A stretch of DNA of 64,000 nucleotides from Mycobacterium branderi (GTDB lineage: Bacteria; Actinomycetota; Actinomycetes; Mycobacteriales; Mycobacteriaceae): assembly GCF_010728725.1 (NCBI RefSeq), contig NZ_AP022607.1, positions 496,001 through 560,000 on the forward strand. The letters run 5' to 3'. Numbering within the stretch: position 1 is the stretch's first letter; every line of letters begins with the position of its first letter. A program made the position numbers and the translations under genes. The notes beneath the pieces were generated by a model that was not told the origin of the DNA, made no database searches, and worked only from the letters and a program-made list of their open reading frames with translations. Below are positions 11,651 to 34,900 of the stretch, in pieces.

Positions 11651-13185
11651 CGGCTGATCCTTCGCTGCAGGACGTCGTGATTGAGTCCGTACTTGTCGGC
11701 TAACGCCGCGGCATACGCAAGGCCGTCGGCCCGCCGGCGGGTGAATTTGAATGTTCGTCGTGTCGGGTCGTCTTCCGCTACTCCGCCAACCATGCTTACG
11801 CATGCCGGGGCGAGACTGGCCAATTCGTCGAGGAAGGTGACGTAGACGGCGACGCAACCCAGTCGGATGATGCGCTCGAGCACTTCGGTGCCGATCAGCA
11901 GTGCGTCGTTGGCAGTGGTGGACGAGAAGCTTTCGTTCATGACGATGATGCTGGCGTCGGTAGCGCGGGACAGGATGTCATGAATCCGCACGAGCTCGTC
12001 GTCGAGCTTGCCGTGCAACGTCGCCAGGGTTTCTTGCCGTTCGAAGTGGGTGTAGATCCGGTCGGGAAGCATGAACCGTGCACGGCTGGCGGGGATCGGA
12101 CAGCCTAGTGACGCAAGATATGCGCACTGCCCGATGGTTCGGGCGAATGTGGTTTTGCCGCCCTGGTTAGGGCCTGTGACGACGAATATCCGCTCGCCGT
12201 CCGATAGCCGAAAGTCGTTGCACACGACCGGCTTGCCGTCGTCGATCGACTTGATCGCCAGCGCCAGGTCGAAGGCATCCTCGACGTACACAGCACCGGC
12301 TTCCGAGGTGACATCGGGATAGCTGAAGGCAAGTCCGGCCTTAGTGAAGCGATCGATGAACGAGCGATAGGCCAGGTAGAAGCGAACCTCATGTTCGAAG
12401 CGGGCAAGAGTGCGTTCGACAAAGTGCTCGTTTCGGCGGCAAAAGTCGTCGAGCAGCTTGAAGGTATCCGGATACAACTTGGCCACGCAGTCGAGAATTT
12501 GCTCCTCGACGTGGTTCATATCGGCGAAGTCTTTAAGGGCTACGTGGTAGTCCTTGCGTGCTTCGGTGGCGAAACGTTCGAACACCGCGACAACCCCGCG
12601 ACTGTAATCGGGTTGTCCGTCGAACCTGTCGACATGGACCCGCAAGCCTTGGATATGTACGGTGTAGCGCACCTTGTGCAACTCGGCCTGCACGGCTTCG
12701 GTGTCAGCCACCAATTTTTTGAAGGTGTCGCTGTCGACATAGCGCGCCAGGTAATCGGCGACATCCCGCAACCCGGGCGAAGCCACCTCGATGCGGGCGA
12801 GATCGTCGCGCAGCATTGCCATCGCGGCGCAGTAAGCCTCGACGGCGTAGATAAACCAGCCCTGCTGCTGCAGTGGATGCCACAGTTTCTTGGCCTGCTG
12901 CAGCCGGTTTCGCATCGTCCGCATGCCGTCGACGAAATTGTCGATTGGTCGGCGTATGTGGTCGTGATCGAGGTCGCGGAAGACCTGCTGCCGATACTCG
13001 ACGGTCGCCACGCCGTGCAATGGCGCGTAGAAGAACTGGTCGAGATGCTCCTCGGCGTGCCCGATTGTCGCCGCGCCGATGACTTGATCCAGGAGTAGGT
13101 CGGGAAAGCACTCCGGTGGGTTGTCCGCACCAGTCCGCGCGCCGGAACCCGGGAAGAGGATGCTGGTAAAACCCACTTGCCTCAC
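11647..13185 (-). CDS. MutS-like ATPase (first of a tandem pair)
   Basis: The 512-residue protein has the same layout as its downstream neighbour: a helical N-terminal two-thirds, then Walker A GPNQGGKTT at 338-346, Walker B SIIVMNESFSSTT, and a VYVTFLDELASL switch in which the usual His is Phe. It lacks the MutS mismatch-binding domain. The two differ enough to be old paralogues and may form a heterodimer. The promoter region carries one copy of a 47-bp repeat. The function, DNA remodelling or something else, is unknown. Confidence 0.8.
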   Translation of the reverse strand: MRQVGFTSILFPGSGARTGADNPPECFPDLLLDQVIGAATIGHAEEHLDQFFYAPLHGVATVEYRQQVFRDLDHDHIRRPIDNFVDGMRTMRNRLQQAKKLWHPLQQQGWFIYAVEAYCAAMAMLRDDLARIEVASPGLRDVADYLARYVDSDTFKKLVADTEAVQAELHKVRYTVHIQGLRVHVDRFDGQPDYSRGVVAVFERFATEARKDYHVALKDFADMNHVEEQILDCVAKLYPDTFKLLDDFCRRNEHFVERTLARFEHEVRFYLAYRSFIDRFTKAGLAFSYPDVTSEAGAVYVEDAFDLALAIKSIDDGKPVVCNDFRLSDGERIFVVTGPNQGGKTTFARTIGQCAYLASLGCPIPASRARFMLPDRIYTHFERQETLATLHGKLDDELVRIHDILSRATDASIIVMNESFSSTTANDALLIGTEVLERIIRLGCVAVYVTFLDELASLAPACVSMVGGVAEDDPTRRTFKFTRRRADGLAYAAALADKYGLNHDVLQRRISR

Positions 13186-13213
13186 CTGCTTCCAACCCGC
13201 GGTTCGTTCACGT

Positions 13214-13260
13214 GGTAGAAGCCATCAGCCGGTGCGGCGGTCAAGGCGAGCTTCATCGCC
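13214..13260 (+). repeat. 47-bp direct repeat, left copy
   Basis: This copy matches 17026-17072 at 46 of 47 positions (C for T once). The two bracket the esx/PPE/PE island. It also lies 29-75 bp upstream of the first MutS-like start, so it may be a promoter element, an insertion scar, or both. A weaker relative is at 18538-18566. Confidence 0.85.
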
Positions 13261-13311
13261 TTGCTCTATGGTACGCCGCAACCGACCTGGCTTGCCAATA
13301 CCGCTGGCGCG

Positions 13312-15223: not shown

Positions 15224-16402
15224 TTAGCCGGCGGCCGGTGAGCGCACAATGACGGGTTTGCTCTTTTCGCGAGGACCGTCGAATCCGTGAGGAGAGAGCA
15301 TGCCCAACATCGATTGGCTGAACGTACTCCCCGGGACAGGCGGCATACCGGTGGTTGCAGCCGGCGCGGCAGTGATGCCGGATTCGGGCAATGTCAGTGC
15401 GACAGTTCGGATCTCCGGTGCTGCCGTCGCCCAGGTAGGCGGTGCCGACAAAGACCCGACCATGGTGGCGCGGCCCATACCCGCCGACACTGCGGGCACC
15501 GCTGCCCCACCCAACCGGACTGGGCTGCTCGAGACGAGGCGGGCAGCTGCAGACTTTTCCGCGTCCTGAGCTTCTTGGAATGCAAGGCGCGCGTTGAGGA
15601 TGGAAATACCGCGCGCCGAGGTAGCGGCGTTGGTGAACGAGAGCGCGGTGTTGATGACATTCGGGATGCGCTCCGCCGTGCCCACTAAGAACAGCGGGGA
15701 AATGCCCGTCGGCGGGGCGGGCGCTTGCAGCGGGGCGGGCGCTTGCAGCGGGGCGGGCGCTTGCAGTGGGGCGGCCATCGTGGACAGCAGCTGTGGCACT
15801 GTCGTCGACTGGGTCCCGGCAGCATTGCCCACTGCGTGAGCTACCGCGCCCGATTGTGCGGCCAGCCCGGCCGGATCGGTGGTGGGCTGTGGCGGTGTGA
15901 ATGGAGGCAATTGACTTGCAGCAGCTGATGATCCGGCATATCCGTACATGGCGGCCGCGTCTTGAAGCCACATCTCGGCGTAGTGCGCCTCGGTTGCCGC
16001 AATCGCCGGCGCGTTCTGCCCGAAGAAATTCGTTGCGACCAAAGTCATCAACAGACTGCGGTTGGCGGCAATCACCGGCGGCGGAACCGTCATCGCGAAC
16101 GCGAGTTCATAGGCCGCCGCCGCCGCCATAGCCTGGGCACCGGTCTGCTCGGCTTGCGCAGCGGCGTTGTGCAACCACGCCACATACGGCGCGGCAGCCG
16201 CGGCCATCGCCAATGACGCCGGTCCAGACCACCCCGTGCCGGTCAACTCGGACACAACGGATCCGTATGCCGCCGCGCTCGCCGATAGCTGGGCAGCAAG
16301 CGCGTGCCAGGCCGCCGCAGCTGCCATCATCGGACCCGATCCGGGACCGGAATACATTCTGGCCGAGTTGATCTCCGGCGGTAGAACTCCGAAATCCAGC
16401 AC
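15224..16402 (-). CDS. PPE family protein (SVP-like)
   Basis: The 392-residue protein begins [17 protein letters not shown]. It has the full PPE domain with GWSGPAS, and an SVP-like segment [17 protein letters not shown] in which SVP reads SAP. A linker near residue 210 contains three tandem LQAPAP units. It ends IVRSPAAG, like the next PPE, which suggests duplication within the island. It follows the PE gene by 12 bp. Confidence 0.93.
15714..15774. repeat. Tandem 18-bp repeat within a PPE gene
   Basis: Three in-frame 18-bp units plus a partial fourth encode the LQAPAP repeats. Copy number changes would lengthen or shorten the PPE linker by six residues without a frameshift. Confidence 0.85.
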
Positions 16403-16414
16403 ATACCCTCCGTC

Positions 16415-16714
16415 TCAGCCGGTCGCAATGGCGTTGGCGGCCTCGGTGGCGGCGTACGAGCCGGCACTGGTTCCGAGGGTGCTGACGAACATCTCGTGAA
16501 TGGCGGCGGCCTGGGCGCTGACCGCTTGATAGAGGTGCCCCTGGGCGGCGAACTGCGCCGCCGTCAACGCCGACACCTCGTCGGCGGCCGCAGGTACCAC
16601 TCCGGTCGTGGGAGCGGCCGCGGCACCGTTTTCGGCGCTCATTGCTGAACCGATCCCGGCCAAGCTGCCTGCTGCTGCCGTCAGAGCTTCCGGCTGCGCT
16701 GTTACGAATGACAT
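16415..16714 (-). CDS. PE family protein
   Basis: This 99-residue PE domain starts MSFVTAQPEALTAAAG and ends [12 protein letters not shown]. It is the first gene of the leftward PE-PPE-PPE-esxM-esxN operon and is the likely partner of one or both PPE proteins. An AGAAAGGGA ribosome binding site precedes the ATG. It is similar to the PE at 4205, so the two modules probably share ancestry. Confidence 0.95.
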   Translation of the reverse strand: MSFVTAQPEALTAAAGSLAGIGSAMSAENGAAAAPTTGVVPAAADEVSALTAAQFAAQGHLYQAVSAQAAAIHEMFVSTLGTSAGSYAATEAANAIATG

Positions 16715-17250
16715 GGATTTCCCTTTCTCTACGACATCTCTCTACGAGCGCGATAAACGCTGGATAATTCTGAAGTTAGGCGACCTCCCCTTCGGTTGAT
16801 GATTCCGATCGTCTTCGCTTCGTTAGTCAACGAGAATGCCGTCGCAGCAGCGGCGTTCGGCGCATTCGGGAGTGCTTCGGCGCGCGTCGGTTAATCGACA
16901 GCCGGAATACGTTGCGCTCCTGGCCTGCACACGCGTCGGTATCGGAAATTGCGTGGGGGAGCGAGAATACGCTGTGATTCGGGTTCGCCGCCATCGGCAC
17001 CTGCCTTCACCCTGACTCAGTCACGGGTAGAAGCCATCAGCCGGTGCGGCGGTTAAGGCGAGCTTCATCGCCTGGAGCCGAGGTTACACTTCGGCCGGCG
17101 CGGCTGGCAATCAGTTTGTCGGGATCGATTTGTAGCGGATAATTGGAGACGGCGGTGGGGCTCGCCGCAACCGCGATGTCGCCGACAGTCCCTAGACATC
17201 TACCGGGAATGAATAAGGCGCATGTCTAATAGAGCACCGCAGGAGCCATC
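16715..17250. other. Intergenic region upstream of the PE-PPE-esx operon
   Basis: No gene is supported in this 536-bp gap. It holds the operon promoter near its left end and the right copy of the 47-bp repeat at 17026-17072. An AGTCCCTA string at about 17190 recalls half of a DosR box but no full palindrome is present. Confidence 0.55.
17026..17072 (+). repeat. 47-bp direct repeat, right copy
   Basis: This is the partner of 13214-13260, in the same orientation and with a single mismatch. Unlike the left copy it is not just upstream of a gene, which favours a role as an island boundary or as a promoter relic. Confidence 0.85.
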
Positions 17251-17553
17251 ATGAGTTCGCCGCTGCGACCCATTCCGGACCCGGCGCAATTCGACATCAT
17301 GTTTTCGCTGCCACCCGGGGGCACCGACAACGGGGCGTGGGCCAGCGCATGGGCCGAGCTCGCCGATCTGCAGCCCGGTGATGTCGAGCCAGTGCTCGCA
17401 CTGCTCGCGGAGGCGGACATCGGCGGGTATGTCGCGACGCCCGGTGGCCGCGGGTCGCGCACCGCGAAGCGGATGATCAACCGGCTATGGGTCGACTCGG
17501 TTCAATACCACCACGCCGAAGACGTGCTGATGGCTTACTTCCGGGCCCACTAA
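17251..17553 (+). CDS. Conserved hypothetical protein
   Basis: The 100-residue soluble protein begins MSSPLRPIPDPAQFDI and contains VEPVLALLAEADIGGYVATPGG and RMINRLWVDSVQYHHAEDVLM. A small alpha/beta domain is likely, and the last residues overlap the 3' end of the convergent phosphatase gene by 4 bp. The family was not recognised. Confidence 0.6.
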   Translation: MSSPLRPIPDPAQFDIMFSLPPGGTDNGAWASAWAELADLQPGDVEPVLALLAEADIGGYVATPGGRGSRTAKRMINRLWVDSVQYHHAEDVLMAYFRAH

Positions 17554-18119
17554 TCAGGCGTGCAATCGTAGGCGTCGACGCGCCAGCGGCCGCCGACGAG
17601 GCTGAGCTGATTCCAGCATGCGGTTCGTTGCGGGACATGGTCCAAGGTTGGGTCCAGTTGTGACAGCAGCGCGCGGTTGAACGCGTCATGAGACACCATC
17701 ACAACGGGTCCCGGTCCGTGTTCGGCCACCAGCTCGAAAAACGCCCGTCGCGCGCGATCGGCCAATGCAGTCAGCGGCTCGACACCGGGCGCGGAATCGA
17801 CGCTGCCGTATTGGCATTCGACGGCGTCGCGACGAAGCCCGGTCATCGGCCCGTAGTCGCGGTCGTTGAGCCGTGCGTCGATGGTGACCGGGACACCCGC
17901 AGCGCGGCCGATCGCCTCGGCGGTCGCCACCGCTCGCTGCAACGGACTGGAGACCACCACGGTCGGGCGTTTGCCGGCGAGAACCTCGGCGAGTCGTGCT
18001 ACTTCGGCGATGCCCACTTCGTCCAACGGTGGGTCGCTCAACCCACGCAGTCGCCCCTCGGCGTTAAGCGCAGTACGGCCATGTCGGGCGAGGTAGACCC
18101 GCGTCGCGCCCGTCGTCAC
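17550..18119 (-). CDS. Histidine phosphatase family protein (phosphoglycerate mutase-like)
   Basis: The 189-residue protein has the signature YLARHGRTALN, with catalytic His at about residue 12, followed by SSPLQRAVATAEAI with the conserved Arg, an RDYGPMTG acid/base region, and VVMVSHDAFNRALL with the second His. It probably hydrolyses a phospho-metabolite; the substrate is unknown. The start GTG at 18119 overlaps the stop of the upstream universal stress gene by 4 bp, so the two are translationally coupled. Confidence 0.85.
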   Translation of the reverse strand: MTTGATRVYLARHGRTALNAEGRLRGLSDPPLDEVGIAEVARLAEVLAGKRPTVVVSSPLQRAVATAEAIGRAAGVPVTIDARLNDRDYGPMTGLRRDAVECQYGSVDSAPGVEPLTALADRARRAFFELVAEHGPGPVVMVSHDAFNRALLSQLDPTLDHVPQRTACWNQLSLVGGRWRVDAYDCTPD

Positions 18120-18508
18120 GTCGGACCGCCGTATTCGGGAACCACCACGACAGGGCGGCGGCTGTGCCGCAACACATTTCGCGCGACAGAGCCGGTCACC
18201 ACATGCCCCAGGGCGGCCTCGGGGCCGTGTTGCGGCCGGCCCACCACGAGCATCGACGCCGAATGCTCGTCGGCGACCTGCACAAGCACTTCGGCCGGGT
18301 CGCCGCGAATCTGGTGGTATGTCCACTGCAAGTCCGCCGCGCCGAGAGCATCCGCCACCCGCTGACGCTCTGCGTCGAAGTCTGCACCTCGTCCGTTGAC
18401 GACGTGGACGACATGCAACGGCACATTCAACGCACCTGCTAGTTCGCCGGCAAATACCAGGGCGGCCCGGCCGGCCGGGTGACGGTCGTATCCGACGACC
18501 AAAGCCAC
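18116..18508 (-). CDS. Universal stress protein (single UspA domain)
   Basis: The 130-residue protein begins MALVVGYDRHPAGRAAL and keeps the ATP-binding pattern G-x2-G-x9-GS (GRPQHGPEAALGHVVTGS). Such proteins bind ATP and act in starvation or hypoxia responses in mycobacteria. It starts with GTG after GAGGAGATCACC and is coupled to the phosphatase. A 6-bp-arm inverted repeat and a relative of the 47-bp repeat lie in its promoter. Confidence 0.85.
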   Translation of the reverse strand: MALVVGYDRHPAGRAALVFAGELAGALNVPLHVVHVVNGRGADFDAERQRVADALGAADLQWTYHQIRGDPAEVLVQVADEHSASMLVVGRPQHGPEAALGHVVTGSVARNVLRHSRRPVVVVPEYGGPT

Positions 18509-18521: not shown

Positions 18522-18535
18522 CTGCACCTGTGCAG
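18522..18535. promoter_or_regulatory. Inverted repeat in the universal stress gene leader
   Basis: CTGCAC and GTGCAG arms separated by two bases lie about 14-27 bp upstream of the start, just before the ribosome binding site. It could be an operator or a short leader hairpin. Confidence 0.35.
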
Positions 18536-18537
18536 GA

Positions 18538-18566
18538 ACCATTAGCCTGTTCGGCGGTTCGGGCGC
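18538..18566 (+). repeat. Degenerate relative of the 47-bp repeat
   Basis: The core CCATtAGCCtGTtCGGCGGT differs from the corresponding part of the 47-bp repeat at few positions. It is in the same orientation and at a similar distance (about 30 bp) from its gene start as the copy at the MutS-like promoter. This favours a shared regulatory element over a simple insertion scar. Confidence 0.4.
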
Positions 18567-18785
18567 TCCGGCACCCCGGCGGAGATCCATCGCCACCATC
18601 CACCTTAGGCCATCGACCAACGTGCGTGTTCTGCTTGACCAAGCCGAATTTGCGTTGGTTAACTAGTGGCGGCGATGGTGCCCGCCGGGAAGTCGTCTTC
18701 CAAACCGTCACATGGCTGATGGCGCCTGCGAACGAATGGAGTCGCAGGTGATCTATGCACTTCCCTGTCCGGGCGCGCCGGCACC

Positions 18786-19241
18786 ATGACGTCGGCCGAG
18801 GACTCACTAGTCGAATTACGTTGTGCGGTAGCCGTCGTCCGTGGCGACGCGGTGCTGTTGATAGAGCCTCCCGACCGCGGCGATTGGGTACTGCCCGGCG
18901 GACGCCCACACCCACACGAAGGCATGGTGTCGTGCGCGCGGCGAGAGACCCGTGAAGAGACCGGGCTTGACGTCTTCCCCAATAGGTGTGGCCTTGTGCT
19001 GGAAGTCAACGACCGCCTCAGGGACCGTCGCATCGTCGAGCTGGTGTTCGTCGCCGAGGAGTTCGACGCAGCCTCGCAGGTCGCCGGAGAGGCGGGCCGG
19101 CGGCCGGCGTGGGTGAGTTGGGACGAGTTGAAAACGATTACGCTGCACCCGCCCATCGCCGGATTCCTTCCGGACCTTCGTCGTGGTGGCTACGCCCGCT
19201 ACCTCGGCAATATGTGGCGCCCGGAGCCCGGTGATTCATGA
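18786..19241 (+). CDS. Nudix hydrolase
   Basis: The 151-residue protein carries a Nudix box running from GGRPHPHEG to CARRETREETGLDV, with the REXXEE metal-binding glutamates. Substrate specificity cannot be predicted. Its stop overlaps the start of the next gene (ATGA), so it is the first gene of the hyc-type operon. It is transcribed divergently from the universal stress gene. Confidence 0.85.
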   Translation: MTSAEDSLVELRCAVAVVRGDAVLLIEPPDRGDWVLPGGRPHPHEGMVSCARRETREETGLDVFPNRCGLVLEVNDRLRDRRIVELVFVAEEFDAASQVAGEAGRRPAWVSWDELKTITLHPPIAGFLPDLRRGGYARYLGNMWRPEPGDS

Positions 19242-20197
19242 CAGCACTGCCGCTACCGTTGATTCAAGGTTTGCAGGTGGCCACCGTCGCGGGTGGCGCC
19301 CCAGGTGTCAGCGGGTTCATCGCGTGGTTCGAGGCCCGCCTGCAGGGCCGGCGCGGGCCGCGCATCCTGCAGCCCTATTTCGACCTGGCCAAGCTCTTCG
19401 GCAAGGAGTCGCTCACACCAAACGGCGCCGGCCCGATTTTCCGGCTGGCACCAGTGGTGTCCTTCGCCTGCTATCTCACCGTTCCACTGTTGATCCCGGT
19501 GCTCACCACCTACGCGCTGCCATTGGGATACATGGCCGACGTACTCGGTGGAGGACTGATCCTGGCATTCGCCAGCTTCCTGGTCGCCGTCGGTGCGGCC
19601 GAAACCGGTGACTCCTACGCCCAATTGGCGTCCAGCCGGGCCAAGACCTTTGCCGCGATCACCGAGCCGGTCATGCTGCTGGTCTTCTTCACCGCGGCGA
19701 TGATCAGCACAACCGATTTGCCCTATGTCATCGGAGCCACCGTCCGCAGCGGGCCAGACCAAATCGTCCGTCCCGCACACCTGCTCGCCTCCGCAGCGCT
19801 GTTCATGGTGATCATCTACGAAACCGGGCGCATCCCCATCGAAACCCACACCGGCACCATCGAATTCGGGATGATCGAAACAGGCCGCACCTTCGAATAC
19901 TCAGGACCCGATTTGGCGCTGTTGCACTGGGGCTCGGCGGCCAAACAACTGGTGCTGTACGTCATCCTGCTCAACGTCTTCGTAGCGCCCTGGGGAATGG
20001 CGGCGGGTGCATCGCCGATCGAGGTTGGATTGGCCATCCCCGCGATCTTGGGGAAAGCCGCGCTGCTCGGTGCTGCAATTGCGGTGCTGAACAACAGCTA
20101 TGCCAAGCTGCGGCTCTACAAGATCACCGAATTCGTCTCGGCCGCATTGCTGTTGGCAGTCTTGGCGGTGTTCACGCTCTACCTGGGAGGCGGCTGA
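19238..20197 (+). CDS. hycD: Formate hydrogenlyase-like membrane subunit HycD
   Basis: The 319-residue polytopic protein is a NuoH/HycD-type subunit with the segments GRRGPRILQPYFDLAKLFGKE, then AFASFLVAVGAAETGDSYAQLASSR and IETHTGTIEFGM (conserved glutamates). It forms the membrane anchor that contacts the soluble arm. It is first of the six hyc-type genes, each overlapping or abutting the next. Confidence 0.9.
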   Translation: MTALPLPLIQGLQVATVAGGAPGVSGFIAWFEARLQGRRGPRILQPYFDLAKLFGKESLTPNGAGPIFRLAPVVSFACYLTVPLLIPVLTTYALPLGYMADVLGGGLILAFASFLVAVGAAETGDSYAQLASSRAKTFAAITEPVMLLVFFTAAMISTTDLPYVIGATVRSGPDQIVRPAHLLASAALFMVIIYETGRIPIETHTGTIEFGMIETGRTFEYSGPDLALLHWGSAAKQLVLYVILLNVFVAPWGMAAGASPIEVGLAIPAILGKAALLGAAIAVLNNSYAKLRLYKITEFVSAALLLAVLAVFTLYLGGG

Positions 20198-20877
20198 TGG
20201 CGTTGGCGGGCAACCAGTTCGTTCCCACGGTCTACGACGGAACCGCCAACACCGTGGCGCTGATCGTGCTGCTGCTGGAGTTCGGGATGTTGCGGCAAGC
20301 GATGCTGCGCGGCCAGGTCCGGCTGTACGCAGGGCAGTCATTCGCGGTCAGCGTGCTGGCCGGCGTCGTCGCCTTCCACCATCATGTTCCCGAGCTGTAC
20401 GCGCTTGCCGTGTTGTCGTTCTTGCTCAAAGTGATCGCCGTCCCGCTGCTGGTGTTCGGGCTGCTTCGGGAAGCCCCTGAAGAGATCGCCGGCAGCGGAG
20501 TGCTCGGTGTGGCAACCGAAGTGCTGATCTCGATCGGCATCGGTGCGTTCGGGTTTTTCGCCGTTGGTGTTCTCGGTATCCATTCCGAAATGCTGCCCAC
20601 CACCGCGCTCAGCTTGTCGGTGGCGGTAGTGCTGGTGGCCTTCGTGCTGATGATCGTTCGGCGCGACGTGGTCAGTCAAGCCATCGGCTTCTTCTCGCTG
20701 GAAAACGGCGCGTCCCTGGCGAGCATGGTCGTAGCAGCGGGAATGCCGCTCATCCTCGAGGTCGCGTTCTTGTTCGACCTGCTGGTGGCCGTCGTGGTAT
20801 TCGGGGTGCTGATGCGCACCCACCATCGGCGGACGCGGTCGCTGTCCACGGCATCGCTCGATCGGCTCCGGGGGTAG
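20197..20877 (+). CDS. hycP: HycP/HyfE-like small membrane subunit
   Basis: The 226-residue protein has about seven hydrophobic helices with the conserved GVVAFHHHVPELYALAV segment and IVRRDVVSQAIGFFSLENG. It resembles Rv0085 of M. tuberculosis (HycP) and HyfE-type subunits related to NuoK. It overlaps hycD by one base and ends 3 bp before hycQ. Confidence 0.85.
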   Translation: MALAGNQFVPTVYDGTANTVALIVLLLEFGMLRQAMLRGQVRLYAGQSFAVSVLAGVVAFHHHVPELYALAVLSFLLKVIAVPLLVFGLLREAPEEIAGSGVLGVATEVLISIGIGAFGFFAVGVLGIHSEMLPTTALSLSVAVVLVAFVLMIVRRDVVSQAIGFFSLENGASLASMVVAAGMPLILEVAFLFDLLVAVVVFGVLMRTHHRRTRSLSTASLDRLRG

Positions 20878-20880: not shown

Positions 20881-22392
20881 ATGTCCGCGGTGATGGTGCT
20901 GCTCATTGTCCTGCCGTTGCTCACCATGCTGGTGTGTACCGTTGCGCCACACGGAGTTGCCGCGGCTGCCACCGCAGTTACGGGGATCATCGCCCTCGTG
21001 CTGGCAGCGATACTGGTGCCGGCCAGTCTCAACCACACCCTCACGGCGCTGCGGTACCTGCGCGCCGATGCACTTTCTGTCGTGTTCCTGCTGGGCACCT
21101 GCTTCGTCTATGCGGTCGTCGGGGTGTATTCCATCGGATACCTCGGCGACGAAGCGCGTGCTGTTCGATCCGACACCGCCGAGGAGCAGGCGCTGTTCGC
21201 CCGCTATAGCACCCAGTTCTATTTGGGGGTCAACGCCTTTGCCTGGTCGATGATCTGCGCACCGCTGGTCAACGGTCTGGCCCTGCTGTGGATTGCCGTG
21301 GAAATCACCACCGTCGTCTCGGCGCTGTTGGTGGCGCTGGACAACACCGAAGGCGCAACCGAGGCCGCGTGGAAGTATGTGCTGATCGCGTCGTCCGGGC
21401 TCGGCATCGCGCTGCTGGCCACAATTTTCATGTACTACTCGGGCGCGCAGGTTCTCGGCCAGTCCTATGATCTGGCGTTCGACCCATTGATCACCGCCGG
21501 CAACCAATTGTCCCAGACGCCGGTACGTTTGGCGTTCGTCTTGGCGGTGGTGGGTTTCGGCACCAAGGTGGGACTGTTTCCGGTGCACACGTGGCTGCCG
21601 GATGCGCATGCCGAGGCGCCGACACCGGTGTCGGCGCTGCTGTCGGGGTCACTGCTGGCGGTGAGCTTCTACGCGATCCTGCGCTATTACCAGATCACCG
21701 TCGCGGCCCTCGGGCCGCGGTTTCCGCAGATCGTGCTGTTGGTCTTTGGTGTGCTGTCGTTGCTGCTGGCGGCGCTGTACCTACTCGAGCAGCGTGATAT
21801 CAAGCGGCTGCTCGCTTATTCGAGCGTCGAGCATATGGGCATCATTGCGATCGGTGTCAGCTTCGGCGCGTCGATTGCGTTTTCGGGTGTGCTCTTGCAT
21901 GTTCTCGCGCACGCCGCCGCCAAGGCCAACGCGTTCATGGGGGCCGGTGTGCTGGTGCGCAAGTTCGGGACCAAGGAACTCGCCCGGATGGCACAGGGCA
22001 TCGGGCTGCTTCCGTGGTCGGGTCCGATGTTTTTGGTCGCCGTTTTCGCTTTGTCGGCGATGCCGCCGTTCGCCTTGTTCCGCAGTGAGTTTCAAATTGT
22101 TGCCGGCGGCTTCACCCACGGCCGCAACGTGGCCACCGCGGCGCTCGTCATCCTGGTCAACCTCGCGTTTCTGGGGCTGACGTGGGCGACGACGCGGATA
22201 TTGTTTCGACCGGAGCCAGAAGCGCCGAGCGCGGACGGGTCTACATTGAGTGCCGGCGAGCCGAGCCGCTGGATGGTGGCACCGGTCGCGGTAGGAGTGC
22301 TGGTTCTCGTGGTGTTGGGGGTGGCACCGCCGTCGGATTTGGTCGATCTGCTCCACCACGGTGCGGCCGAGTTGATGGTGGGTACGCGATGA
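20881..22392 (+). CDS. hycQ: Antiporter-like membrane subunit HycQ
   Basis: The 503-residue Mrp/NuoN-type subunit has about 14 helices. It includes a helix with conserved Glu (WIAVEITTVVSALLVALD), the Lys-containing segment FGTKVGLFPVHTWLPDAHAEAP, and LLAYSSVEHMGIIAIG. Such subunits move protons or sodium. It overlaps hycE by 4 bp. Confidence 0.88.
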   Translation: MSAVMVLLIVLPLLTMLVCTVAPHGVAAAATAVTGIIALVLAAILVPASLNHTLTALRYLRADALSVVFLLGTCFVYAVVGVYSIGYLGDEARAVRSDTAEEQALFARYSTQFYLGVNAFAWSMICAPLVNGLALLWIAVEITTVVSALLVALDNTEGATEAAWKYVLIASSGLGIALLATIFMYYSGAQVLGQSYDLAFDPLITAGNQLSQTPVRLAFVLAVVGFGTKVGLFPVHTWLPDAHAEAPTPVSALLSGSLLAVSFYAILRYYQITVAALGPRFPQIVLLVFGVLSLLLAALYLLEQRDIKRLLAYSSVEHMGIIAIGVSFGASIAFSGVLLHVLAHAAAKANAFMGAGVLVRKFGTKELARMAQGIGLLPWSGPMFLVAVFALSAMPPFALFRSEFQIVAGGFTHGRNVATAALVILVNLAFLGLTWATTRILFRPEPEAPSADGSTLSAGEPSRWMVAPVAVGVLVLVVLGVAPPSDLVDLLHHGAAELMVGTR

Positions 22393-23909
22393 GCATCGCG
22401 GTTACGATCACCGTCACCGACCTGGATCTGAATCAGTGGCGCATGCAGATCCGCGACCGTGTCACAGCGGGTGAGCGATTCGCGGGGCTATACAGCACCC
22501 ATCGTGGCGACGCGGCACAACTGCACGCGCTACTCGTCGGCGGCGATTCGGTCAGCTGTCTGCGGGCCGGCCTGTCGCCGCAAACCAACGGCTCGCTGTC
22601 GTATCCGTCGCTGACGCCCGAAGTGCCGGCGGCATTTTGGTACGAACGCGCACTACACGATCTGTCCGGTGTGATACCCCTGGGCCACTCACGGCTGGAT
22701 CCGCTGCTGCTGCCTCGCGAGCCAGGGCAGCCGTCGCCGCGGCCGGGCAACTCGGAGCAGGCCGCACTGGAACGCCACATCCATTCTCGCGCCGCGGAGC
22801 AACATGGGCCCGTCGACGTCAGGGGTGGCGGCGTCTTCACGTTGCCACTCGGACCGGTGCGCTCCGGCGTGTTCGAATCGATCGAATTCCTGATCGAAAC
22901 ACCGGGCGAGGACATTCCGCATCTGAACATCCGGCCGCATTACAAGCATCGCGGAATCGCCAAGCGGTTCGAGACATTGCCAGTAGCCGACGGAATCCTG
23001 GTTGCCGAACGGGTGGAGGGCATCGCCTCGATCGCGCACGCGCTCGCTTTCGCCCACGCTGTCGAAACGCTCGCAGGTGTCAGCCCACCGCCGCGCGCGC
23101 AGATGGTGCGGGTGATCCACGCCGAGCTGGAACGCATCGCGAACCACCTCGACGTGGTCATGCGGCTCTGCGACGCCGCCGGGTTGGCCGTCCCCATCGC
23201 TCGATTCGGGTGGCACAAGGAGTTGGTGTTGCGATTGGTGTCGGCGCTGTGCGGCAACAGATTCGGCCGCTCGGTGGTCTGCCCCGGCGGTGTCAACGCC
23301 GAGCCGCGACTCCCGCCCGCGGGCATTTCCGAACAAGTCGCGGTGATCCTGCGACGCATCCGTGGCGACCGCGACGCACTCATGGTCGACGCGTCGTTCC
23401 TCGACCGGCTGCGAGGAACCGGACATCTCGACCCCGCACTGGCCGCGTCGCATGGCGCACTCGGACCGGTCGGCCGCGGCTCCGGATACGACGATGATGC
23501 TCGTCGCCGCGCCTACGACGGCTACGTCCAACTGCCGGCCGTCGACGGCGCTGTAGTGCAGGACGGTGGTGACGCCTTGGCGCGACTACGGGTGCGGTGG
23601 ACCGAAATCGACATCTCGGCCGAGCTGATCGCCCGTGCCTGCGACCGGCTTGCAACCATGTCCGATACCGCACTCGCAATGCCGATACCCGACGTCGACG
23701 GCTTTGCATTGGGCTGGGCGGAGGCGCCGCAGGGCGAGGTGCTGTACGGGCTGGAGGTCCGCGACGGGGCGATCGTGCGTTGCTTTGCGCGCTCCGCCTC
23801 TCTGCACAACATGTTGCTTTTTCACGACGTCTTCCAGGGCGACGTGTTCACCGACTTCCCGTTCATCGAGGCGAGTTTCGGGCTGTGCTACGCCGGGGTG
23901 GCGATGTAG
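22389..23909 (+). CDS. hycE: HycE-like large subunit lacking NiFe ligands
   Basis: This 506-residue protein combines a NuoC-like N-terminal domain (1-150) with a NuoD/HycE-like large subunit. The site that is RxCGxC in hydrogenases reads RVEGIASIAH at 208-217, so both cysteines are replaced by Glu210 and Ala213. The C-terminal DPCxxC reads GLCYAG at 498-503, with only the first Cys left. It cannot bind a NiFe centre as hydrogenases do, and it resembles energy-converting hydrogenase-related (Ehr) complexes. The start at 22389 is set by the ATGA overlap with hycQ. Confidence 0.88.
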   Translation: MSIAVTITVTDLDLNQWRMQIRDRVTAGERFAGLYSTHRGDAAQLHALLVGGDSVSCLRAGLSPQTNGSLSYPSLTPEVPAAFWYERALHDLSGVIPLGHSRLDPLLLPREPGQPSPRPGNSEQAALERHIHSRAAEQHGPVDVRGGGVFTLPLGPVRSGVFESIEFLIETPGEDIPHLNIRPHYKHRGIAKRFETLPVADGILVAERVEGIASIAHALAFAHAVETLAGVSPPPRAQMVRVIHAELERIANHLDVVMRLCDAAGLAVPIARFGWHKELVLRLVSALCGNRFGRSVVCPGGVNAEPRLPPAGISEQVAVILRRIRGDRDALMVDASFLDRLRGTGHLDPALAASHGALGPVGRGSGYDDDARRRAYDGYVQLPAVDGAVVQDGGDALARLRVRWTEIDISAELIARACDRLATMSDTALAMPIPDVDGFALGWAEAPQGEVLYGLEVRDGAIVRCFARSASLHNMLLFHDVFQGDVFTDFPFIEASFGLCYAGVAM

Positions 23910-24704
23910 ATGGCGTGGGCGTTCAGAGGGCTGCGCAACGGAGTTGTCACGACTGCGTGGCCGAAGGGTGCAGACGAGTACTTCGACGGATTCGCCGCGT
24001 CAGTCCGGGTGCTCGATTCCGGCTCTGCCGTGCCGGATTCGGTTGCCGACGCGGCCGCTGCCTGTCCCACCGATGCTATTTCGGTGGAGCCGAGGCCACA
24101 GCTGGATCGCGGGCGCTGCATTCTGTGCGGGCGGTGCGTTCGCCTGGCCCCAGATTGGTTCGCATGGGAATCGGGGTGTGGCACAGCAGACCTGGCATGC
24201 CGGGCATTGGTGGTTGGTGATGTCGAAGAAACCGACGAGGCGTTGGCGCAGCTGCGAGCCAGCTTGGCCCGGCGGGTGCGGCGGCTGCGCCGTTCGGTGC
24301 ACATTCGTCATGTCGACACCGGATCAAACGGCAGCGACGAGTGGGAGATCCAGGCGCTGACCAATCCGGTCTACGACGTGCACCGGTTGGGCATCTTCTT
24401 TACCGCCAGCCCCCGTCACGCGGACATTTTGCTGGCAACCGGTATCGGCGTTGCCGGGATGGTCGAGCCGCTGCGCCGCACGCTCGAGGCGATGCCGGAG
24501 CCGACCGTCGTGATCGCCGTTGGCACCGACGCCATCAGCGGAGGCATCCTCGGCGGCGGATATATCGGCGGTACCGGGATATCCGAACATGTTCCGGTTG
24601 ATGTGTGGGTGCCGGGCGCGCCGGCCTCGCCGTTCAGCGTGCTGCACGGCATTCTGCTGGCGCTGGATCGCGTGCCCGCGGGAATCACAGGGGGCACGCG
24701 GTGA
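23910..24704 (+). CDS. Ferredoxin plus NuoB/HycG-like small subunit fusion
   Basis: The 264-residue protein joins an N-terminal ferredoxin-like domain to a NuoB/HycG domain, as in M. tuberculosis Rv0082. Cys52 and Cys70, Cys73 and Cys76 could bind one [4Fe-4S] cluster. In the second domain every cluster position is changed: the CNGC region reads SNGS at 139-142, the next Cys site reads GTDAIS at 205-210, and PGCPP reads PGAPA at 235-239. The N2-type cluster therefore seems to be absent. It starts right after hycE and overlaps the next gene by 4 bp. Confidence 0.85.
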   Translation: MAWAFRGLRNGVVTTAWPKGADEYFDGFAASVRVLDSGSAVPDSVADAAAACPTDAISVEPRPQLDRGRCILCGRCVRLAPDWFAWESGCGTADLACRALVVGDVEETDEALAQLRASLARRVRRLRRSVHIRHVDTGSNGSDEWEIQALTNPVYDVHRLGIFFTASPRHADILLATGIGVAGMVEPLRRTLEAMPEPTVVIAVGTDAISGGILGGGYIGGTGISEHVPVDVWVPGAPASPFSVLHGILLALDRVPAGITGGTR

Positions 24705-26716
24705 TCGCCGTCGGGCTGGTGTTGACTGCCGCGGCAGTCGTCCTCAGCTGGTGCGCAGGGCTTGACCGTCGCAGGGGCGCACAGGTAGGGCTGGAGACGA
24801 TGGCGTCCGTCGTGAATTTGACGGCGGCCGTGCTGTTCACAATCGGCGGAGCGTTGGGCTTAGCCGGTCGGTCCGAGCGACTCGAACTCGGCGGCCTGGC
24901 CGGTCTGGGGCCGGCCAACCTGACCATCGACCGGTTGTCGGGCCTGTTCCTGGTCATTTCGTTCGGAGTTGCCGTCCCGGTCCTGATGGCGGCGGCGGCA
25001 CCGGCGAACCGGCCCCGTCCCCGCCTGCCGGCCGCCGCCGCCATCGGGTTGGCGGCCGTCGCGGTCATCGTCACCGCGGACAACTTCTTCGTACTGCTCT
25101 TCGGTTGGGAGACACTGACCGTCGCGTTCTACCTGATGGCCGGCTACGACCGCGATCTACCAGGCCGAGTTGCCGGGTCGGTTATCACAGTCGTTTTCGG
25201 CAAGGCCAGCGGCGCAGCGATACTGCTGGGCGCACTGCTGCTGGTGGGGCGGACGCACACCTTCGTGTTCAGCCCAGAGATGGTGGATTCACGCAGCGCT
25301 GTCGGTCAGGCCGCCTATGCGTTCCTGTTGCTGGGCTTCGGCATCAAAGTCGGCATCGTTCCCGCGCATATCTGGGTGCCTCGCGGCTATGCCGCAGCTC
25401 CCGGGCCGGCACGCGCGGTGATGGCCGGAGTCGCGGTCAACGTCGGCTTCTACGGGATGTGGCGCACGCTGGACGTCCTTGGTGCGCCGCCGGTGTGGCT
25501 AGTATGCACGGTCCTGATCGTTGGGGGGGTGACCGCCATCCTGGGCATCGCCCATGCTGCGGTCAATCCCGATCTGGCCGCGTTGATCTCGTGGTCGAGT
25601 GTGGAAAATGCGGGCGTGATCATCGCCGGGTTCGGCGTGGCGCTGGTTGGCGCTGCTGCGGCCGAGCCGAAATTGATCGCGGCCGGACTGGTGGCCGGCA
25701 CCGCCCAGGTGATGACGCATGCCTTGGGCAAGGCAGCGTTGTTCGTCTCGGCTTCTGCGATCGAGCAGGCGACTGGCACCACCGACCTCGACCGGCTGGG
25801 GGCCGTCGTTCGTCGCCTGCCCTGGGCCGGGACGGGTTTGGTGATCGGGTCGCTGACATTGGCTGGCGTGCCGTTGACCGCTGGCTTTGCGTCGGAGTGG
25901 TTCACGCTGGAGTCGCTGATGCAGCAGTTCCGGGTATCGAGCCTTGCCATGCAGCTTTCTACCGCAGTGAGCGGTGCCTTGGTCGCCTTGACGATCGGTA
26001 TCGCAGCCGTGACGTTCGTGCGGGTGGTCGCGTTGACGGCGTTCGGTCCGGAGCGAATGGGTGAGCCGCCGATGGATCCGGATGGTGCGCGGGTGGATCG
26101 TGAATGGCCGTACCGACTCGGCATAGCCGCCTTGGTGGCCGGCTGCCTGGGCGCCGCGGCCTTCGCGCCGCTGCAGGTGCGGCTCATCGGACGCGGCTTG
26201 ACGCCGATCGTGGGCGATCAGGCGTCGGGCGCCAACGCCAAGCCGTGGGTGCTGCAGCCGGTCTACGCCGACTTCTCCGCGCTGTCCCCCACGTGGCTCT
26301 GGATCGTGTTGCCCGCAATGGCAGTCGTGATTGCCGGCTTTGCGGCGTTGTTCGCCGGACGTAACCCTTTTCGGACACGCCGGGTGGTGCCGTGGTCGTC
26401 CGCATCGCCTGGGGTCGACCGGGGAGTGGGCTACACCTCGTTTGCCTACGCCAACCCGGTCCGCAATGTGCTGAGCACCATGCTGTTGACGACTTCTGGA
26501 TTGGTCACATCCACGGATGAGCCGACCCGAGGCCTGACTTACCGTGTCGACGTCGTCGACCTTGTCGAGCGGTACTTCTATCGGCCGCTGACCGTCGGCA
26601 CGCTCTATGTATCGCGAATTGCCAAGCGGCTGCAGTCGGGTCGGCTCGATGCATACATGGCCTACATGCTGATCGCGGTGCTGGCCGTGCTAGCGGTGGT
26701 GATCGCTACCTCGTGA
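24701..26716 (+). CDS. HyfB/NuoL-like antiporter subunit (Rv0083-like)
   Basis: The 671-residue protein has many transmembrane helices and the core antiporter motifs: FVLLFGWETLTVAFYLMAGYD with the conserved Glu, GFGIKVGIVPAHIWVP with Lys, and LISWSSVENAGVI. A final helix near the C-terminus resembles the anchoring helix of the family. It ends the hyc-type operon and is convergent with enolase, 17 bp apart. The GTG start is set by the GTGA overlap with the previous gene. Confidence 0.88.
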   Translation: MIAVGLVLTAAAVVLSWCAGLDRRRGAQVGLETMASVVNLTAAVLFTIGGALGLAGRSERLELGGLAGLGPANLTIDRLSGLFLVISFGVAVPVLMAAAAPANRPRPRLPAAAAIGLAAVAVIVTADNFFVLLFGWETLTVAFYLMAGYDRDLPGRVAGSVITVVFGKASGAAILLGALLLVGRTHTFVFSPEMVDSRSAVGQAAYAFLLLGFGIKVGIVPAHIWVPRGYAAAPGPARAVMAGVAVNVGFYGMWRTLDVLGAPPVWLVCTVLIVGGVTAILGIAHAAVNPDLAALISWSSVENAGVIIAGFGVALVGAAAAEPKLIAAGLVAGTAQVMTHALGKAALFVSASAIEQATGTTDLDRLGAVVRRLPWAGTGLVIGSLTLAGVPLTAGFASEWFTLESLMQQFRVSSLAMQLSTAVSGALVALTIGIAAVTFVRVVALTAFGPERMGEPPMDPDGARVDREWPYRLGIAALVAGCLGAAAFAPLQVRLIGRGLTPIVGDQASGANAKPWVLQPVYADFSALSPTWLWIVLPAMAVVIAGFAALFAGRNPFRTRRVVPWSSASPGVDRGVGYTSFAYANPVRNVLSTMLLTTSGLVTSTDEPTRGLTYRVDVVDLVERYFYRPLTVGTLYVSRIAKRLQSGRLDAYMAYMLIAVLAVLAVVIATS

Positions 26717-26733: not shown

Positions 26734-27999
26734 TCAATGGCGGGGCAATCCGAACGCCAAATCAGCATCGGCGGCTATTTCGAGCAGCCGGTTGTATTTG
26801 GCTACCCGCTCGCCCCGGGCAGGGGCACCCGACTTGAGCTGACCGCACCCCGAACCGACTGCCAGGTCGGCGATGAACGAATCGGACGTCTCGCCGGAGC
26901 GGTGCGAAATCATCGCGCCGTACCCCGAGGCTCGGCAAACCGCCAAGGCGGCAAGGGTTTCCGAAACCGTCCCGATTTGGTTCACCTTGATCAGGGCGGC
27001 GTTGGCGATACCCGCGCTCACCGCGGAGCTGATCAGCTCGGAGTTGGTGACGAAGTTGTCGTCGCCAACCAGCTGCACGCGATCACCGAGCGCGCCAGTC
27101 AGCTTCCGCCAGCCCGCCGTGTCGTGTTCCCCCATCCCGTCTTCGATGCTCCACACCGGATATTTTTCGACAATGCTGATGTAGCGCTCGATCAGCTCGT
27201 CGCTGCTAAGCGATTCAGCGCACAGCCAGTAGCGGCCGTCGCGGTGGAATTCGCTGGCGGCGGGGTCCAGCGCGATGGCGACGCCGCTATGCCCGGCCGT
27301 GTATCCGGCGTCGTCGATGGCCTCGGTCAGAAGCGCCAGAACCTCTTCCGGGGAATCGATTTCCGGTGCGAAGCCGCCCTCATCCCCAAGCCCGGTCGCC
27401 AACCGACGATCGGCCAATGCGGATCGCAGCCGTCGATACACTTCGGCCCCGGCCCGGATCGCTTCGGGCAGCGACGGCGCGCCGACGGGAGCGATCATGA
27501 ACTCCTGGAAGTCGAGTTTGTTCAGCGCATGTGCGCCGCCATTGACGACGTTGAAGTGTGGCACCGGCAGCCGAGGAACCACGCCGGCAGGAGTCAGCCA
27601 CTGCCACAACGGTTGTCCGGACTCTCGCGCGAACGCCCGCGCCGCAGCCATCGACACGCCGACGATCGCGTTGGCACCCAATCGCGATTTGTCGACAGTG
27701 CCGTCCAGTTCCCGCAGAGCTTGATCCAGCTCCTCGAGGGAAGCGAACGAGCGATCGATCAGGGCGTCCGCGATGGGACCGTTGACGTTTTCGACCGCCC
27801 GTCGCACACCCTGCCCGGCGTAGCGCTGGTCGTCGCCGTCGCGCAGCTCGATGGCCTCCCGCGTGCCGGTCGAGGCGCCGGCAGGTACTCCCGAACGCAC
27901 CTGGGTTCCATCGGGCAATGTGGCGGTTACCGACACAGTGGGACGGCCACGCGAGTCGAGGATCTCTATCGCCGATATCGACGAAAACCGTACGGCCAT
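26734..27999 (-). CDS. eno: Enolase (2-phosphoglycerate dehydratase)
   Basis: The 421-residue enzyme is full-length. The sequence shows metal ligands in IALDPAASEF, WSIEDGMGEHD and VGDDNFVTN, the catalytic Lys of ALIKVNQIGT, the SHRSGET phosphate-binding loop, and the GGFAPE Glu. It converts 2-phosphoglycerate to phosphoenolpyruvate. This is likely a second enolase, since it lies outside the usual housekeeping context. The start at 27999 follows GGAAGGAACTC. It is divergent from DUF190. Confidence 0.9.
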   Translation of the reverse strand: MAVRFSSISAIEILDSRGRPTVSVTATLPDGTQVRSGVPAGASTGTREAIELRDGDDQRYAGQGVRRAVENVNGPIADALIDRSFASLEELDQALRELDGTVDKSRLGANAIVGVSMAAARAFARESGQPLWQWLTPAGVVPRLPVPHFNVVNGGAHALNKLDFQEFMIAPVGAPSLPEAIRAGAEVYRRLRSALADRRLATGLGDEGGFAPEIDSPEEVLALLTEAIDDAGYTAGHSGVAIALDPAASEFHRDGRYWLCAESLSSDELIERYISIVEKYPVWSIEDGMGEHDTAGWRKLTGALGDRVQLVGDDNFVTNSELISSAVSAGIANAALIKVNQIGTVSETLAALAVCRASGYGAMISHRSGETSDSFIADLAVGSGCGQLKSGAPARGERVAKYNRLLEIAADADLAFGLPRH

Positions 28000-28059
28000 C
28001 TGAGTTCCTTCCGTCGTGGCCGAGCAGCCACGGACGCTCCCATCAGGGTATCGCACCGG

Positions 28060-28090
28060 GTGACCTTTGGGCACAGCATTTCAGCTGAAA
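28060..28090. promoter_or_regulatory. Two palindromes between enolase and DUF190
   Basis: GTGACC-TTT-GGGCAC (28060-28074, one mismatch) and the perfect 12-bp palindrome TTTCAGCTGAAA (28079-28090) lie in the divergent promoter gap. Both could be operators for the two divergent transcripts. The fluoride riboswitch consensus was not convincingly matched. Confidence 0.45.
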
Positions 28091-28121
28091 GCCCTTGAAT
28101 CGCAACGAAAAGGAGGCGTCC

Positions 28122-29201
28122 ATGGATGAGGATTGTCTCAAGCTCACCGCGTACTTCGACGAGCGCCAGCGCAGTGGGCGTCGCTTCCTGGCCGACGCAA
28201 TCCTCGACCCGTACGGCCAGCGCCAGATCGCGTCGAGCATCGTGCTGCGTGGCATCACCGGCTTCGGTACCGGGCGTCACCTCAGGAGCGATCAGTCGCT
28301 GACCCTGTCCGAGAATCCGCCCATCGCGGTGATCGCCGTGGATACCAAAGCACGGGTTGAAGAAATGCTTGACTCCTTGCTGGCGATCGAGCGATGCGGT
28401 CTGCTGACCATGGAGCGCGCCCGTCTGCTGTACGACGACATCGGGCCGATCGAGTTATCCGACGAACTGCACGAAGCGACGAAGCTGACGATCTACGTCG
28501 GCCGCAAGGAACGCGTCTACGGTGTCCCCGCATATATCGCGCTGTGTGAGCTGATGTACCGGCGAAAGCTCGCCGGCGCCTCGGTGTTTCTCGGCGTGGA
28601 CGGCACCTTTCATGGGAGCCGCCAACGTGCACGCTTCTTCGGCGGCAACGCCGACGTCCCGGTCATGATCATCGCCGTCGGAAGCGGTGAGCACATCGGC
28701 CGGGTACTTCCCGAACTCGGCGGTCTGCTGCGGCGCCCGTTGATCACCGTGGAACGAGTGCGCGTCTGCAAGCGCGACGGAGAACTGCTGGAACGCCCGC
28801 ACGCGCTGCCGGGCACCGACGAACACGGTCTGGCGCTGTGGCAGAAACTGATGGTCTACACATCGGAATCGGCACGCCACGACGGCATGCCGATCCACCG
28901 CGCGTTGGTTCAGCGGCTTCGGCAGCATAAGTCATCCAGTGGTGCAACGGTATTACGCGGAATCTGGGGATTCCACGGTGATCACGAGCCGCACGGCGAC
29001 AAGCTGCTCTCGCTCAGCCGTCATGTCCCGGTCGTCACGATCATCGTCGACACCCCGGCCAACATCGCCGCATCCTTCGACGTGGTGGACGAGCTCACCT
29101 CGGAGCAGGGACTGGTGACCAGCGAAATGGTGCCCGCGCTGCTGACAGCCGCCGACGGTAACGGCAACGGCGGGCCAACAATCGCCCACCACAACTACTA
29201 G
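28122..29201 (+). CDS. DUF190 family protein, double domain
   Basis: The 359-residue cytosolic protein contains two or three DUF190-type units of about 100 residues. The pattern RRFLADAIL-N15-SSIVLRGITGFG recurs as ALVQRLRQH-N7-TVLRGIWGFHG near 275, and a middle copy lies near 145-160. DUF190 is a PII-like fold known near crcB fluoride exporters and enolase in other bacteria. AAAAGGAGG precedes the ATG. It is followed by an MFS gene, and the divergent neighbour is enolase. Confidence 0.8.
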   Translation: MDEDCLKLTAYFDERQRSGRRFLADAILDPYGQRQIASSIVLRGITGFGTGRHLRSDQSLTLSENPPIAVIAVDTKARVEEMLDSLLAIERCGLLTMERARLLYDDIGPIELSDELHEATKLTIYVGRKERVYGVPAYIALCELMYRRKLAGASVFLGVDGTFHGSRQRARFFGGNADVPVMIIAVGSGEHIGRVLPELGGLLRRPLITVERVRVCKRDGELLERPHALPGTDEHGLALWQKLMVYTSESARHDGMPIHRALVQRLRQHKSSSGATVLRGIWGFHGDHEPHGDKLLSLSRHVPVVTIIVDTPANIAASFDVVDELTSEQGLVTSEMVPALLTAADGNGNGGPTIAHHNY

Positions 29202-34894: not shown

Positions 34895-34900
34895 AATACT

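Follow-up and report, generated by a model that had tools for sequence, protein, structure and literature searches.

A fluoride-riboswitch-led operon of Mycobacterium branderi for a hydrogenlyase-like complex lacking the NiFe and N2 cluster ligand sets

The operon and its fluoride riboswitch

The window analysed here, a stretch of 64,000 nucleotides of Mycobacterium branderi (contig NZ_AP022607.1), carries an operon for a Nudix hydrolase and the subunits of a formate hydrogenlyase-like complex, in the order nudix-HycD-HyfE-HyfF-HycE-FdNuoB-HyfB (Table 1). Directly upstream of its first gene lies a fluoride riboswitch with a crcB-motif aptamer, and the four such riboswitches that Rfam finds genome-wide are all inside the window. 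The regulon of this switch is reportedly the subject of Baker et al. 2012. An earlier note on this DNA had described the complex as an Ehr-like pump with its NiFe and N2 sites gone and its membrane arm kept, which agrees with our results, but it had not seen the fluoride context, in which a riboswitch leads the operon. The window's operon includes no formate dehydrogenase gene, no NADH module and, by Pfam matches, no redox-partner gene, operons elsewhere not having been searched for such a partner. All results come from sequence and predicted folds.

Relatives were taken from a scan of genome contigs, of which the best 80 of 95 were kept as 79 loci; with the window, these make up a family of 80 HycE sequences. 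By tblastn with the window's subunits, the 79 loci gave matches to HyfF in 79, HycE in 79, HyfB in 78, the fusion subunit in 75, HyfE in 71 and HycD in 70, many of the loci being on cut contigs and some having HyfF and HyfB matches that land on each other's gene. A Nudix homologue was matched in 12/79, not in every case at this position. Counts across related genomes, here and below, are not independent.

The 24 fluoride riboswitches that Rfam detects in the window and in 11 of the 14 loci tested were used to build a covariance model, R1. With R1, a sense fluoride riboswitch is found 3.1-4.1 kb before hycE in 63 of the 65 loci that have at least 4.2 kb of upstream DNA, with scores of at least 20 bits in 59 of the 63. 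Two loci were counted as misses: L060, which has no HycD- or HyfE-like match upstream and whose upstream DNA is not the operon, and L097, with a weak candidate (12.2 bits) at the expected place. The operon is patchy across Mycobacterium (5/148 genomes), and in all five the switch is in sense, 3.2-3.7 kb before hycE; any fluoride riboswitch match occurs in 20 of the 143 genomes without the operon (hypergeometric p ~1e-4, computed by hand with relatedness ignored).

We also used 19 extra HycE-like loci of the same phylum (L109-L127, L126 apparently being on the same contig as L094), which were picked by HycE score and not by riboswitch. Here R1 finds a sense switch about 3.5 kb from hycE in L109-L112 and L114, with HycD as the next mapped gene in L109, L112 and L114; 5.2-5.4 kb from hycE in L115-L117, with an unmapped stretch of about 1.9 kb before HycD; and 3.2 kb from hycE in L126. 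L127 reaches 13 bits only, L125 has only a chance-level match of 10.9 bits, and no R1 riboswitch was found in L113 and L118-L124. Rfam confirms the switches in L109, L112, L114 and L115 and, at its cut-off, finds none in L118, L122, L123 and L108, the second HycE-like locus of the window's own genome. An R1 match of 16.4 bits at L108 was rejected as a riboswitch, its conserved middle part being unmatched in the alignment and its score under the Rfam cut-off. Outside the phylum, 8 of the 84 plasmid records with a relative were examined (Pseudomonadota loci). Two Burkholderiales plasmid loci, L130 and L131, have Rfam fluoride riboswitches directly before HycD, and the other six, which are switch-less Ehr loci, have none (R1 maximum 13.5 bits).

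In the window, 8 bases in the 5' part of the aptamer are complementary to the nudix start region. Start-codon masking was rejected as a general expression platform, since in 69 operon switches the longest complement has a mean of 5.83 bases and shuffled downstream DNA gives 5.74.

Ligand residues of the soluble arm and their loss

The HycE-like subunit reads RVEGIAS at residues 208-214 and GLCYAG at residues 498-503, in place of RxCGxC and DPCxxC, just as the earlier note had proposed, and the boundaries it gave for this gene and for that of the NuoB-like partner are correct. In the alignment with E. coli HycE, C241 is replaced by E210, C244 by A213 and C534 by G503, while C531 corresponds to C500. 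Other cysteines at the ligand positions, which the earlier note had taken as grounds for giving up its reading, are absent apart from C500, which the note itself had printed. In the family, no HycE has two or more cysteines in the NiFe ligand columns (0/80), six have one (the window included) and 74 have none, with four of the 80 rows stopping short of the second motif (L038 and L103 at a contig end, L033 and L106 by a broken frame). The full set of four NiFe-ligating cysteines of group 4 [NiFe] hydrogenases, in two CxxC-type motifs, is therefore missing. The residues that we take to form the quinone site of complex I (NuoD), His38 and Tyr87 in Thermus Nqo4 numbering, are also replaced: the equivalent of H38 is F in the window and in 59 of the 80 rows, and that of Y87 is G in 80/80. 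The nickel chaperone HypA was found in 14 of 31 complex-bearing genomes and not found in 17, of which 12 are isolates by title.

In the NuoB-like domain of the partner subunit, N140, D143, D207 and A237 align with C48, C51, C115 and C145 of HycG, the ligands of the proximal N2-type [4Fe-4S] cluster of group 4 hydrogenases. The earlier note's claim that this partner has lost all cluster cysteines and keeps a single-cluster ferredoxin domain can be extended to the family, in which 74 members have no cysteine at the N2 positions (in L056, L059 and L101 some or all of these positions are gaps) and the four cysteines of one ferredoxin cluster (C52, C70, C73, C76) are complete in 74/74. The first three former N2 positions are acidic in 68/74 members, and D140 and D207 are at least 90% conserved in 35 sequences, the window itself having N140. 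The folds are intact in the predicted models, which show folds only; the ferredoxin domain is partly of low confidence and was hardly tested by the fold list.

A maximum-likelihood tree was calculated for 52 HycE-like proteins, including those of 22 of the 79 loci and leaving out L124 (a long branch in the first tree) and L111 (a near-copy). The 34 rows of the riboswitch-linked type form one clade (support 99/97), in which L060, L097 and L127 are labelled by family, their own switch being missing or weak. The 13 switch-less, cysteine-less Ehr rows are sister to this clade (96/89), and the NiFe enzymes fall outside (100/98). Inside the riboswitch-linked clade, the N2 positions hold CCCC in L130, L131, L114 and L117, CCCN in L115 and L116, and CCPS in L109-L112, and they are mostly acidic in the main actinobacterial group. 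This series, from CCCC over CCCN or CCPS to acidic residues, indicates that the electron wire was stripped stepwise while the fluoride control was kept. The ferredoxin part has the motifs of two clusters in L130 and L131 and of one in the others printed, and is a separate frame in L109 and L112.

The switch-less Ehr relatives keep N2 as CCCC in 11/13, with TCDD in L120 and L121; at the Rfam cut-off, none of the nine of these loci that were given to it has a fluoride riboswitch. L108 (C1:2408000-2424000, HycE at C1:2417017) encodes a second cysteine-less HycE-like complex with the N2 cysteines intact, presumably the counterpart of M. tuberculosis Rv0082-Rv0087. A further HycE-like protein, L124, reads ERACGADAVA and ELCYACAD, with cysteines at three of the four NiFe positions (CDCC) and N2 as CCCC, and is possibly an intermediate in ligand loss.

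Excerpts of the literature describe Ehr complexes as having a group-4-like architecture without Ni/Fe-coordinating residues, together with antiporter-like subunits (PMC6349859). The complex of the window, like L108, agrees with this in its group-4-like subunit set, its antiporter-like membrane subunits and the absence of the Ni/Fe-coordinating residues. The comparison with Ehr that the earlier note had drawn thus holds for the lost metal sites and the kept membrane arm, but the N2 loss is atypical of Ehr, given the CCCC of 11/13 switch-less loci, and the fluoride-linked rows are a separate clade. As far as the aligned residues tell, the N2 loss argues against a coupling of a cytoplasmic redox reaction to ion translocation in this sub-clade, which the literature suspects for Ehr complexes. 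Compared with formate hydrogenlyase and hydrogenase-4 of E. coli (Hyc, Hyf), the complex has neither the full NiFe set nor the N2 ligands, its operon has no formate dehydrogenase, one ferredoxin cluster is fused to the HycG-like subunit, and control is by a fluoride riboswitch. Compared with respiratory complex I (mycobacterial Nuo), it has no NADH module in the operon and no N2, and the quinone-site His and Tyr are replaced.

Membrane arm and proposed role in the fluoride response

The Glu of transmembrane helix 5 (TM5) and the Lys of TM7, typical of Mrp-type and complex I antiporter-like subunits, are invariant in the alignment of the two antiporter-like subunits (HyfF-like, 75/75; HyfB-like, 64/64), and the TM12 Glu is present in 74/75 and 64/64, respectively. 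The position of the central Lys of the horizontal channel (NuoM K265) is A in 66/75 HyfF-like and N in 63/64 HyfB-like subunits, E. coli HyfF likewise having N. In the NuoH-like subunit, the positions of NuoH E216 and E218 are mostly T or S and mostly T, respectively. The charged antiporter residues, retained according to the earlier note, are thus kept as regards the TM5 Glu, TM7 Lys and TM12 Glu, but not as regards the central Lys and the two NuoH acids. The antiporter-like subunits with their TM5 Glu and TM7 Lys resemble those of Mrp antiporters, with which they were compared by family matches, and differ from these systems by the soluble arm of HycE, NuoB and ferredoxin.

We consider it probable, with considerable room for doubt, that the operon encodes a fluoride-induced, ion-translocating Ehr complex of the Mrp/complex I type, serving pH and ion homeostasis. 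We hold the fluoride link and the absence of hydrogenase chemistry to be well supported and much surer than this reading as a whole, of which we infer the transport mechanism. That a riboswitch leads the operon, and that the operon is part of a conserved set of fluoride-response genes, points to a physiological role for the complex. The reading is backed by the riboswitch link and the fluoride-regulon neighbours, by the missing NiFe set, the genomes in which HypA was not found and the replaced quinone ligands, by the redox wire being dispensable inside one riboswitch-linked clade, and by the conserved ion path. According to excerpts of a 2024 review, fluoride entering as hydrogen fluoride (HF) lowers the cytoplasmic pH and puts a load on the proton-motive force, and among fluoride-riboswitch classes Na+/H+ antiporters come next in frequency after the exporters (PMC11139923).

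In the proposed mechanism, rising cytoplasmic fluoride would bind the riboswitch and turn the operon on, as expected from the switch family. The membrane arm, formed by the NuoH-like, HyfE-like and two antiporter-like subunits, would then move protons, probably exchanging them for a cation as Mrp antiporters do, and thereby offset the acid load and the drop in proton-motive force that HF entry and fluoride export bring about. The soluble arm, which keeps the HycE-HycG fold but has no NiFe site, no quinone ligands and, in this sub-clade, no N2, would serve as a structural or gating domain. In the most tentative step, the redox state of the conserved [4Fe-4S] cluster may set the gate.

Several observations weigh against this reading. 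The loss of the central Lys and of the two NuoH acids means that the proton path differs from that of complex I, and the ferredoxin cysteines, kept in 74/74, would be superfluous in a purely secondary transporter. The hycE frame is broken in 2/79 records (L033, L106), and HypA is present in the window's own genome, where it may serve other hydrogenases. As for the riboswitch link, 4 of the 63 R1 matches are weak (15-19 bits), switches from 11 of the 79 loci scored with R1 were also part of its training set, and Rfam's own model at its cut-off finds the operon switch in 8/14 loci tested (11/14 anywhere in the locus).

The strict conservation of the ferredoxin cysteines is also why we give a lesser but real chance to a redox-driven pump, in which electrons enter at the single [4Fe-4S] cluster and pass to another acceptor, for which a mononuclear metal bound at the acidic former N2 site is a candidate, and ion pumping is driven by coupling through the NuoH/HycE interface. 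The acidic residues at that site (68/74) with the conserved D140 and D207, and the two-cluster ferredoxin and N2 of the two Burkholderiales members, would fit such a pump. It is opposed by the missing NiFe set, the replaced quinone ligands, the stepwise loss of N2 while the fluoride link stays, and the lack of a redox-partner gene in the window's operon, noted above with its limit. The ferredoxin cluster is strictly kept though its usual electron acceptor is gone, in agreement with the earlier note, which had left the electron path open. We regard as doubtful, though worth stating, that the former N2 site was rebuilt as a carboxylate pocket (D140, D/E143 and D207 with S/A237) that binds a hard metal such as Mg2+ and, with it, fluoride, so that the complex would sense or carry fluoride directly and gate a complex-I-type ion channel. 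If true, an iron-sulfur electron wire would have been turned into a metal-fluoride switch for such a channel.

Slightly less likely again is export of fluoride by the complex itself, as an F-/H+ antiporter on the Mrp-like arm. The fluoride riboswitch and the neighbourhood would be expected of an exporter, and 4/31 complex-bearing genomes have no Fluc/CrcB match, but Fluc is also encoded in the other 27, of the four lacking a match three (L039, L071, L097) are metagenome assemblies, and we know of no fluoride-selective motif for this superfamily. It is very improbable that the operon encodes a general Ehr complex of energy or dormancy metabolism whose riboswitch link is a local accident; L108, with its cysteine-less HycE, intact N2 and no fluoride riboswitch at the Rfam cut-off, provides a model for this, but the riboswitch link extends over 63/65 loci, two phyla and one clade.

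The annotation as formate hydrogenlyase, taken to mean a true enzyme with unusual ligands, is scarcely credible when 0/80 HycE have two NiFe cysteines, HypA was not found in 17/31 genomes and the window's operon has no formate dehydrogenase gene. Just as implausible is a decaying, non-functional remnant, which the stepwise loss of metal ligands and the two broken hycE frames might suggest, but against which stand the kept gene order, the long open frames and the strict conservation of ion-path and ferredoxin residues over Actinomycetota.

Published fluoride regulons and neighbouring genes

Weinberg et al. 2010 reported formate hydrogen lyase among the genes under the crcB motif (PMC2864571, in excerpt). 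In the excerpts of later texts, the fluoride-linked genes are still treated as the formate hydrogenlyase enzyme (PMC8752731, PMC11139923). Formate hydrogenlyase counts as one of the commonest fluoride-riboswitch genes, and the 2024 review explains its presence by formate oxidation (PMC11139923). As in the published cases, a riboswitch precedes formate hydrogenlyase-like genes here and the regulon includes mutS, enolase and exporters (excerpts of PMC2864571, PMC11139923 and PMC8752731). The window operon and the published fluoride-regulon genes are very probably the same. Unlike the enzyme as which these excerpts treat them, the members examined here are without its metal sites.

That formate hydrogenlyase genes belong to the fluoride regulon, and that there are Ehr complexes without NiFe ligands, is already known. 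In the open-licence literature, we found no paper linking a fluoride riboswitch to a cofactor-less Ehr complex, nor the identity of the fluoride-regulon 'formate hydrogenlyase' with a cofactor-less Ehr clade, the acidic N2 replacement or the stepwise loss. The fluoride-linked genes covered are those of the actinobacterial loci and the two Burkholderiales cases, and we do not claim that all others are cofactor-less. Because the complex in these cases, judged by its ligand residues, cannot be a hydrogenase or formate hydrogenlyase, the explanation by formate oxidation should be replaced for them. The Ehr complex thereby gains a probable inducing signal and a testable phenotype. In addition, the loci form a natural series showing the stepwise removal of the electron wire from a complex I relative whose ion-moving arm is kept. 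This is relevant to a long-standing question, the coupling of redox chemistry to ion transport in complex I and related complexes.

Table 1 Features of the operon and its surroundings, in window positions
Feature	Position	Strand	Match or residues
Fluoride riboswitch aptamer heading the operon	18662..18735	+	RF01734 40.9 bits, E 6.7e-8; R1 50.8 bits
Nudix hydrolase, operon gene 1	18786..19241	+	PF00293 E 4.5e-14
HycD/HyfC/NuoH-like membrane subunit	19238..20197	+	PF00146 E 1.1e-29; T205/T207 equivalent to NuoH E216/E218
HyfE-like membrane subunit	20197..20877	+	NF008556 E 7.4e-22 (under its cut-off); no Pfam match
HyfF-like antiporter-like subunit	20881..22392	+	PF00361 E 6.9e-51; E141, K229, E403
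HycE/NuoCD-like subunit	22389..23909	+	one of four NiFe ligands (C500)
Former RxCGxC NiFe motif, RVEGIA	23010..23027	+	residues 208-213; E210 in 80/80
Former DPCxxC NiFe motif, GLCYAG	23880..23897	+	residues 498-503
Single-cluster ferredoxin domain fused to HycG/NuoB-like domain	23910..24704	+	
Codons of four ferredoxin Cys	24063..24137	+	C52, C70, C73, C76; one [4Fe-4S] cluster expected; kept 74/74
Stretch with former N2 ligand positions	24327..24620	+	N140, D143, D207, A237
HyfB-like antiporter-like subunit	24701..26716	+	PF00361 E 4.9e-35; E137, K216, E399
Enolase, convergent with operon	26734..28074	-	TIGR01060 E 2e-155
DUF190 protein, three matched stretches	28119..29201	+	PF02641 E 3.3e-72
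Divergent fluoride riboswitch before the genes of a universal stress protein and a histidine phosphatase	18526..18603	-	RF01734 40.4 bits
Universal stress protein	18116..18508	-	PF00582 E 2.5e-20
Histidine phosphatase (phosphoglycerate-mutase-like), scanned stretch	17550..18200	-	PF00300 E 1e-40
Fluoride riboswitch upstream of PE gene and PPE genes	17021..17081	-	RF01734 53.6 bits
Fluoride riboswitch upstream of two MutS-like genes	13209..13269	-	RF01734 46.7 bits
MutS-like protein 1	11647..13185	-	PF00488 E 3.9e-20
MutS-like protein 2	10121..11857	-	PF00488 E 2.1e-16

The other three switches of the window precede genes for a universal stress protein and a histidine phosphatase, for two MutS-like proteins, and for PE and PPE proteins. 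In the fetched flanks of the 79 loci, tblastn finds MutS-like genes in 36, histidine phosphatase in 22, enolase in 20 and DUF190 in 16, and Fluc/CrcB is in the fetched flank of 20/79. Excerpts of the 2024 review describe enolase as inhibited by fluoride and count it among the known genes of the fluoride regulon (PMC11139923).

The strongest switch by Rfam score among the four lies about 300 bases upstream, in sense, of the PE gene (16415-16714), which is accompanied by two PPE-like frames (window 14034-17081, minus strand). The same switch-PE-PPE order is seen in L028, L029 and L038, which suggests that PE/PPE proteins are part of the mycobacterial fluoride regulon. A weaker fluoride-riboswitch-like match at 17142-17201 (plus strand; 22 bits by Rfam, 32.7 bits by R1) precedes a 100-residue frame without Pfam match (17251-17553, plus strand), and a similar match and frame are present in L028 and L038.

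Downstream, the MFS-type gene that follows DUF190 looks frame-shifted, with a 363-residue frame at 29208-30299 and a second one at 30127-30402 (plus strand) that resembles the C-terminal part of a transporter. A TrwC-type relaxase with helicase domains is encoded at 34586-37801 (plus strand) in this second contig of 864 kb, so the fluoride island may be part of a conjugative element or adjacent to one. From 40293 to 63629, a reading by eye of the list of open reading frames shows dense P450, short-chain dehydrogenase, Rieske-type and CoA-transferase-like frames, and this part looks like a catabolic island.

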